Below, in pieces: positions 27,276-28,224 of a stretch of DNA of 64,000 nucleotides (the stretch's first letter is position 1; each line of letters begins with the position of its first letter). The stretch lies in the NCBI RefSeq assembly GCF_023238445.1, contig NZ_CP096658.1:3472001-3536000 (forward strand). The letters are read 5' to 3'. The notes under the pieces were generated by a model, which saw only the letters and a list, made by a program, of their open reading frames with translations, had not been told where the DNA came from and searched no databases. This DNA is from Halorussus gelatinilyticus. GTDB taxonomy: Archaea > Halobacteriota > Halobacteria > Halobacteriales > Haladaptataceae. Both the position numbers and the translations under genes were made by a program.

Positions 27276-27446
27276 GTGGCGTGTTATTGCTCCGCGATGA
27301 CTTAAACGGTTTCACCCCGGAAGTCCGATTATCGCGCCGTTTCGGTCGGTCCCGCGGCGCGTAACGTCGCGTTGCGCGAATCCGAGCGACTGAGACCCGG
27401 TGAAACACGGCGTTTCGATTCTAAACGGATAGAACGGTCGTGCCGG

Positions 27447-27660
27447 TTTATTCCGCTGACTGGCATACGTGAGGACGCCCAGACGGACGCGACGGGGGCG
27501 CGTTCGACGGGCGAGATTTACGAAACGGCACGACCGGACCCGCGGGGGACCGCGGGAGCGACCGACGGACGGCCACGACCGAAGCCCGTACGAGGGTCAA
27601 CCAAACGGGGGAGGTTGGTCGGACCCCGTACGGGCACGACGCTACTGCCCGACTGAGGGC
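27447..27660 (+). other. Intergenic region with TATA-like box and hairpin (possible small RNA)
   Basis: No protein-like frame is present. TTTATT occurs at 27447-27452, and downstream a three-part hairpin can form: GCCCGTAC (27584-27591) with GTACGGGC (27628-27635), GGGTC (27594-27598) with GACCC (27622-27626), and AACC with GGTT inside. A short structured transcript is possible. The reading frames here are arginine-rich and not acidic, arguing against coding. Confidence 0.3.
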
Positions 27661-27790
27661 GGCCGAGCCGCGGTCGCAACCGCTTGCGCGGCGTCCCGAG
27701 CCGTCTTTCTGACGCGGCGGGCGGAGATTTCCGCCCGACCGATTACGTCACTTTCACGCACGAGAGCCGTACGTAGACGTCCTTTAGTGA

Positions 27791-27797
27791 TATTTAT
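27791..27797 (+). promoter_or_regulatory. TATA box of the structured RNA locus
   Basis: TATTTAT within an AT-rich patch; the expected start is near 27818-27822, just before the folded region. Confidence 0.45.
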
Positions 27798-27819
27798 CTT
27801 TTCTTTCCGTATCTACAGA

Positions 27820-28146
27820 TATGTCTCTCGACGGTGGCGGAGGCGCTCGGCGACACGAACCACGGGCGAACGCTTCAGAGAACAGACCACGGTTTGGGTG
27901 GACTGAAAGGGGCCGCGCGGTCGCGGTCACGCGAGCGGTGCGCGGCGCATCGCGCCGCGATTGGTGAGCGGTGCAACCGCGAACCAAGCGAGTGTGACCT
28001 CGGAAGACGCGGTTTGTCTTCCGGCGGGCCGCAGGCCCGTGGTCGTCTCAGTGGCCTCTATCGGCAAGGGCATCTTCGCTTCGCTCGATACCCTTGCCGA
28101 TATGTCACTGAGCGGCTGCGACCGCGCGGGGGCTTTCCACACCGTC
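27820..28146 (+). ncRNA. Candidate structured non-coding RNA with long-range closing helix
   Basis: A gene-free stretch with a nested fold. The closing helix pairs ACGGT (27889-27893) with ACCGT (28141-28145), GTGG (27898-27901) with CCAC (28137-28140), GAAAG (27905-27909) with CTTTC (28133-28137, sharing one base with the previous arm) and the 12-base CCGCGCGGTCGC (27913-27924) with 28118-28129. Inside lie five consecutive hairpins: 8 bp at 27941-27959, 5+5 bp at 27961-27987, 8 bp at 28001-28023, 6 bp at 28025-28039, and 7+12 bp at 28047-28112. A TATA box is 27 bases before its start. It is not RNase P or SRP RNA by their conserved motifs. A 48-codon basic ORF starts at 27821 but does not look like halophilic protein. 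Confidence 0.55.
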
Positions 28147-28224
28147 TCTACGGCGGTTCGGTAGTCACTCCCACAAAAACCCGGATGTCACGCTATCTGC
28201 GAACGTTTCGCAGGCAGGGAGACG

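Follow-up and report, generated by a model that had tools for sequence, protein, structure and literature searches.

The window analysed here is a stretch of 64,000 nucleotides from the genome of Halorussus gelatinilyticus, and between 27843 and 28152 it carries one copy of an unannotated family of repeats, 100-250 bases in size. This window copy has a core of class I, into which a second repeat of ~100 nt, module M, is inserted between the P1 arm and hairpin A. Its parts, with the evidence for each in brackets, are as follows.

27843 to 27892, plus strand: two upstream direct-repeat units, GCGCTCGGCGACACGAACCAC and then the degenerate GCGAACGCTTCAGAGAACAGACCACGG (upstream flanks of 21 copies aligned)
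27900 to 27913, plus strand: 5' box GGACTGAAAGGGGC (found 21 times in the genome, 19 times exactly and twice with one mismatch)
27905 to 27925, plus strand: 5' arm of P1, made up of GAAAG, a GGG loop and CCGCGCGGTCGCG (fold, covariation over 180 distinct arm pairs, consensus fold)
27926 to 28025, plus strand: module M, the nested second repeat, with a stem GGTCACGC../..GTGTGACC, two extra hairpins, then CGGAAGAC GCGGTTT GTCTTCCG (copies of the M hairpin in the genome)
28026 to 28038, plus strand: hairpin A, GGGCCGCAGGCCC, variable within the family (copies compared)
28042 to 28116, plus strand: P2, the long class I hairpin, with a bulged T, an internal loop and the CTATC..GATAT box (lower-stem pairing, consensus fold)
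28117 to 28137, plus strand: 3' arm of P1 with the 3' box GGGGGCTTTC (fold, covariation and consensus fold, as for the 5' arm)
28138 to 28152, plus strand: start of a degenerate 3' tail (position profile over 310 copies, the periodicity being clear only from the family alignment)

An earlier note, made from the letters of this DNA, had described the locus as an RNA candidate with a four-part closing helix and five internal hairpins. The fold itself is real: the stretch 27880-28150 folds as RNA at -164.2 kcal/mol, compared with -121.2 +/- 5.5 for shuffled sequences (z -7.9), or with z -9.1 when folded as DNA, and the hairpins sit where they had been placed. In the closing helix, GAAAG (27905-27909) pairs with CTTTC (28133-28137), and after a GGG/GGG internal loop 13 contiguous pairs join 27913-27925 to 28117-28129. 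These parts of the proposed helix stand, but its outermost GTGG/CCAC pairing is peculiar to the window copy, since the 3' flank in the family is usually TRAACG or GAGGCG. Two of the five hairpins (about 27926-28025) belong to the nested second repeat. The hairpin of module M (CGGAAGACGCGGTTTGTCTTCCGG) is found 15 times in the genome; four of these occurrences fall within a copy of the main element or immediately next to one, and the hairpin also stands alone elsewhere. A second folded non-coding stretch lies upstream in the window (27420-27740; z -4.3); it is present in a single copy, 17 of the 18 Halorussus genomes give one main match each to it at ~70-94% identity, Rfam gives none, and it may be a conserved RNA gene.

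Constant ends, GGGTGGGACTGAAAGGGGCC and CGGGGGCTTTC, flank every copy of the family and pair as a long helix. The ends are near-invariant (GGG-T-GGGACTGAAAGGGGCCG and CGGGGGCTTTC), although they also served to select the copies, so that only bases beyond them are independent evidence of conservation. What lies between the ends is a class I core, a class II core (the two folds being unrelated) or a short hairpin only, and cores without nested repeats are mostly 104-131 nt long with their ends paired. Class I comprises a small hairpin and the long bulged hairpin P2 with its CTATC and GATAT boxes; class II comprises GAYGYAAGCACYGCAG, a hairpin and then GAGGAGCGCAGCGAG. In Halorussus, the 5' box is preceded by one to four direct repeats of ~27 bp, and strong matches to this unit in the genome lie mostly at copies of the element. 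A further apparent repeat, GCGCGAGGGATGAG...GGTTGGGGAGG, was seen in the upstream flanks of loci L038 to L040, L044, L046 and L051, from Haladaptatus and others. On the downstream side, the first ~30 nt past the 3' box (+4 to +31) carry a pyrimidine at every third base with a frequency of 0.66-0.92 (310 copies), for which coding is not the explanation; some copies have a second occurrence of the 3' arm 55-75 bp further downstream, and an AT-rich stretch of ~120 nt follows the element.

The pairing of these arms has been maintained while their sequences changed. Across 180 distinct arm pairs, pairing in the variable part of P1 reaches 92% between partner arms and only 59% (62% at most) once arms are exchanged between copies; the lower P2 stem is 95% paired against 72% with swapped arms, and the class II stem P3 pairs in 68 of 89 cases against 33. 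RNAalifold performed poorly on unfiltered alignments, and the anchored comparison of arms and cleaner sets were used. Compensatory double changes, which the earlier note had proposed as a check on the fold, occur in 18 of 40 pairs of the class I consensus fold and in 21 of 33 pairs of class II, counts that do not represent independent events because the copies are related. The positions of the class II stem P3 change together, giving CACC/GGAG, CACU/AGCG, GACC/GGAC and UAAC/GUAA. Summed over P1 and P2 (three helices), G-U outnumbers A-C by 112 to 39; mutation alone should give both equally, and it is therefore the plus strand whose ability to fold is preserved, whether as RNA or single-stranded DNA (ssDNA). 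Judged by comparison of the copies, the structure is under selection, with one strand kept foldable by compensatory change.

The number of copies differs widely between genomes. The box GGACTGAAAGGGGC occurs 21 times at no more than one mismatch in the source genome, where a control with the reversed pattern gave 0-1, and other Halorussus genomes hold from none (G009) through 52, 67 and 89 to 103 (G006). The earlier note had guessed that its closing motif recurs in haloarchaeal intergenic regions, and this was borne out: of 242 haloarchaeal genomes, 89 contain the exact 15-base box, with bursts of more than 60 copies in separate, distant genera, and in the gene-called set 182 copies have two flanking genes and 11 fall inside gene calls. 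Among the named matches listed for the double-box pattern, all are haloarchaeal. Rfam returned no match for the element, no family reaching its gathering score, nor for the element copies of 18 related loci, in agreement with the view of the earlier note that this is neither RNase P nor SRP RNA; a search of the open literature for the family and the box sequence found nothing relevant. Carriage by viruses was rejected, the double-box pattern having no viral match and the phage collection none either; viral contigs gave 23 single-box matches. A coding role was likewise rejected, because the reading frame through the box is not kept between the ends and core lengths vary in all three phases, and so was a coding tail, the 3' tail being no more open than its periodic pyrimidines force.

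Sites of insertion are mostly not shared between species. Only 7 of 45 sampled sites are common to G006 and G012, and the site of the window copy holds a full element in one genome (G000), the closing helix only in a second (G007), a short and degenerate form in a third (G015) and no element in five others (G008, G013, G005, G016 and G014). The empty site in G008 has flanks too diverged to fix the boundary, and a clean target duplication could not be demonstrated. Where species share a site, a class I core in one may stand in for a class II core in another, with position and orientation unchanged, a pattern suggestive of recombination between copies that swaps their cores. In 15 of 17 species the element occupies the site between btuC and btuD, in one orientation and with stems that differ in most; such occupancy is not predicted for a purely parasitic element and counts against simple turnover. 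Because copy number ranges from zero to more than 100 within one genus and most sites are unshared, the element is read as probably mobile. Our preferred interpretation, to which we assign a probability of about 60%, is that the window stretch is a copy of a haloarchaea-wide, small, non-coding and probably mobile structured repeat that acts through its folded single strand, whether RNA or ssDNA.

The orientation of the copies relative to genes bears on a different role, that of a cis-acting RNA domain which would be co-transcribed with its neighbours and whose fold would act on the stability, processing or termination of the mRNA or be bound by a shared protein. We regard this as possible but unlikely. 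In tandem gene pairs, as called by a simple gene caller, the element lies on the sense strand in 94 cases and on the antisense strand in 47, hinting at a role at the transcript level; the single orientation at the btuC-btuD site and the internal loops of class II, conserved and tolerant of wobble pairs, point the same way. Against it, copies are also found between convergent and divergent genes, and neighbouring copies are arranged head-to-head in 12 of 13 pairs, nine or ten of these only 25-36 nt apart. The flanking genes, among them those at 17 shared sites, are unrelated in function, and the element is found in both orientations, with no link to one pathway as for a riboswitch or leader RNA. 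Furthermore, the gene downstream of the window copy keeps a TATA-like start region in species without the element, and the range in copy number within one genus also counts against this role.

Plasmids offer a further setting for the family. The window copy, used as a blastn query against plasmids, gave no match; a class II query matched 73 haloarchaeal plasmid records. In six of the eight plasmid regions opened, a divergent gene with a product of ~290-300 aa lies 420-630 bp from the class II module; the annotation calls five of these products DNA-binding and the sixth hypothetical, and each of the six matches the Pfam OB-fold weakly. The same arrangement of module and OB-fold gene was judged from coordinates in further plasmids, and pNRC100 has a diverged form. 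The block between the OB-fold gene and the module is conserved and folded, measures ~250-400 nt, has no Rfam match (L404 2446-3000, L408 2535-3000, L413-L419) and is possibly a large plasmid RNA. A gene resembling an endonuclease, with a zinc finger and HNH repeat, adjoins the plasmid OB-fold gene (L404 399-1361, L408 456-1418). The OB-fold gene is a lead and not an explanation, because it does not track copy number, being present in the zero-copy genome and absent from one with 30 copies; as the sole driver of the family it was rejected for this mismatch. It is conceivable, though improbable, that the family is a mobile element at the RNA level, comparable to SINEs or to orphan transposon-linked RNAs: a structured RNA end-module would exist in full form on plasmids, beside the OB-fold protein and the larger conserved RNA, and its short derivatives would be copied around chromosomes, some of them being kept for regulatory use.

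Also improbable is a reading in which the element is an ssDNA site, namely a folded origin, transfer or recombination site of haloarchaeal plasmids, of which the chromosomal copies are relics or targets. The fixed place of class II modules beside the OB-fold gene on many plasmids, the direct repeats that adjoin the hairpin upstream and the symmetry of the head-to-head pairs are in its favour. Some members of IS200/IS605 are oriented according to the replication strand. For the present family, clustering of orientation along the chromosome was rejected in three high-copy genomes, where a runs test on strand gave P values of 0.85, 0.20 and 0.81 (0.014 in G000), the origins being mapped imprecisely; this counts against an ssDNA site, as do the diverged ends of the Halorussus plasmid modules (GGACTCAGAAAGGGCGAGG) and the failure of the OB-fold gene to follow copy number. 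The promoter, head-to-head and orientation results do not discriminate RNA from ssDNA. As for the proposal of the earlier note, a dedicated small RNA gene with its own TATA box, a family of such stand-alone genes would fit the strong plus-strand fold and the covariation, but is very unlikely: no AT-rich peak lies upstream in 351 copies, the AT-rich promoter-like stretch at 27784-27800 is not common to other copies, head-to-head copies 25-36 nt apart leave too little space for a pair of archaeal promoters, and five sister species lack the window copy at its site.

Among known repeats, the nearest are two groups described in haloarchaea. The small mobile repeats (SMR) of Haloquadratum walsbyi are ~80-110 bp long, have inverted terminal repeats, are non-coding, occur in tens of copies and have an unknown mobiliser; they show nested insertions, different repeats at one site in different strains and no target duplication, copies of one type are reported to be commonly >95% identical, and SMR-A targets PATEs and IS605-type elements (PMC3119063). 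The present family, compared with SMR by description and not by sequence, is similar in size, paired ends, non-coding build, copy number and nesting, in lacking a known mobiliser and in having different repeats at one site, but its copies are strongly diverged, differing at most stem positions with compensatory stems, and they lie mostly between ordinary genes, not in PATEs or IS605-type elements as SMR-A does. PATEs, the palindrome-associated elements of haloarchaea, are palindromic, non-coding, heterogeneous, related to IS605-type elements and targets of other small repeats (PMC3119063). The family shares these features, module M being the small repeat that targets it, except that no IS605 link was found and the source genome is without a Y1 transposase. 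Many folded intergenic copies and inverted neighbouring pairs also recall REP/REPIN elements with their RAYT transposases, and BIMEs, from which the family differs in its much larger fold, its two interchangeable cores and the lack of a Y1 transposase in several high-copy genomes. The BOX elements of Streptococcus pneumoniae are modular, with a variable number of repeat units, and resemble the family in this build; no sequence relation is claimed. The family is thus a dispersed small repeat, nearest SMR and PATEs but set apart from both by their descriptions, because it lacks the high identity and the targeting that characterise SMR and shows no link to IS605.

Under the preferred reading of a probably mobile structured repeat, the element would spread by means of trans-acting proteins able to recognise its plus strand in folded form, either RNA or ssDNA, and its core would be exchanged or lost through recombination between copies. 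A Y1 transposase or RAYT was rejected as the mobiliser, being absent from several high-copy genomes (none in G000, G010, G003, G016 and G001), and no mobilising enzyme was found for the family; nor was a gene noticed inside any of the copies, as in an autonomous transposon. The plasmid copies beside the OB-fold gene, whose product would bind single strands, may point to the system by which the family is maintained or moved, and they provide a first handle on the machinery. What emerges is a high-copy, strongly covarying, structured repeat that spans the haloarchaea and is absent from Rfam. One site in sister species may hold class I, class II, a remnant or nothing, and this amounts to a natural experiment in which mobility, core exchange and effects on neighbouring genes are directly testable.
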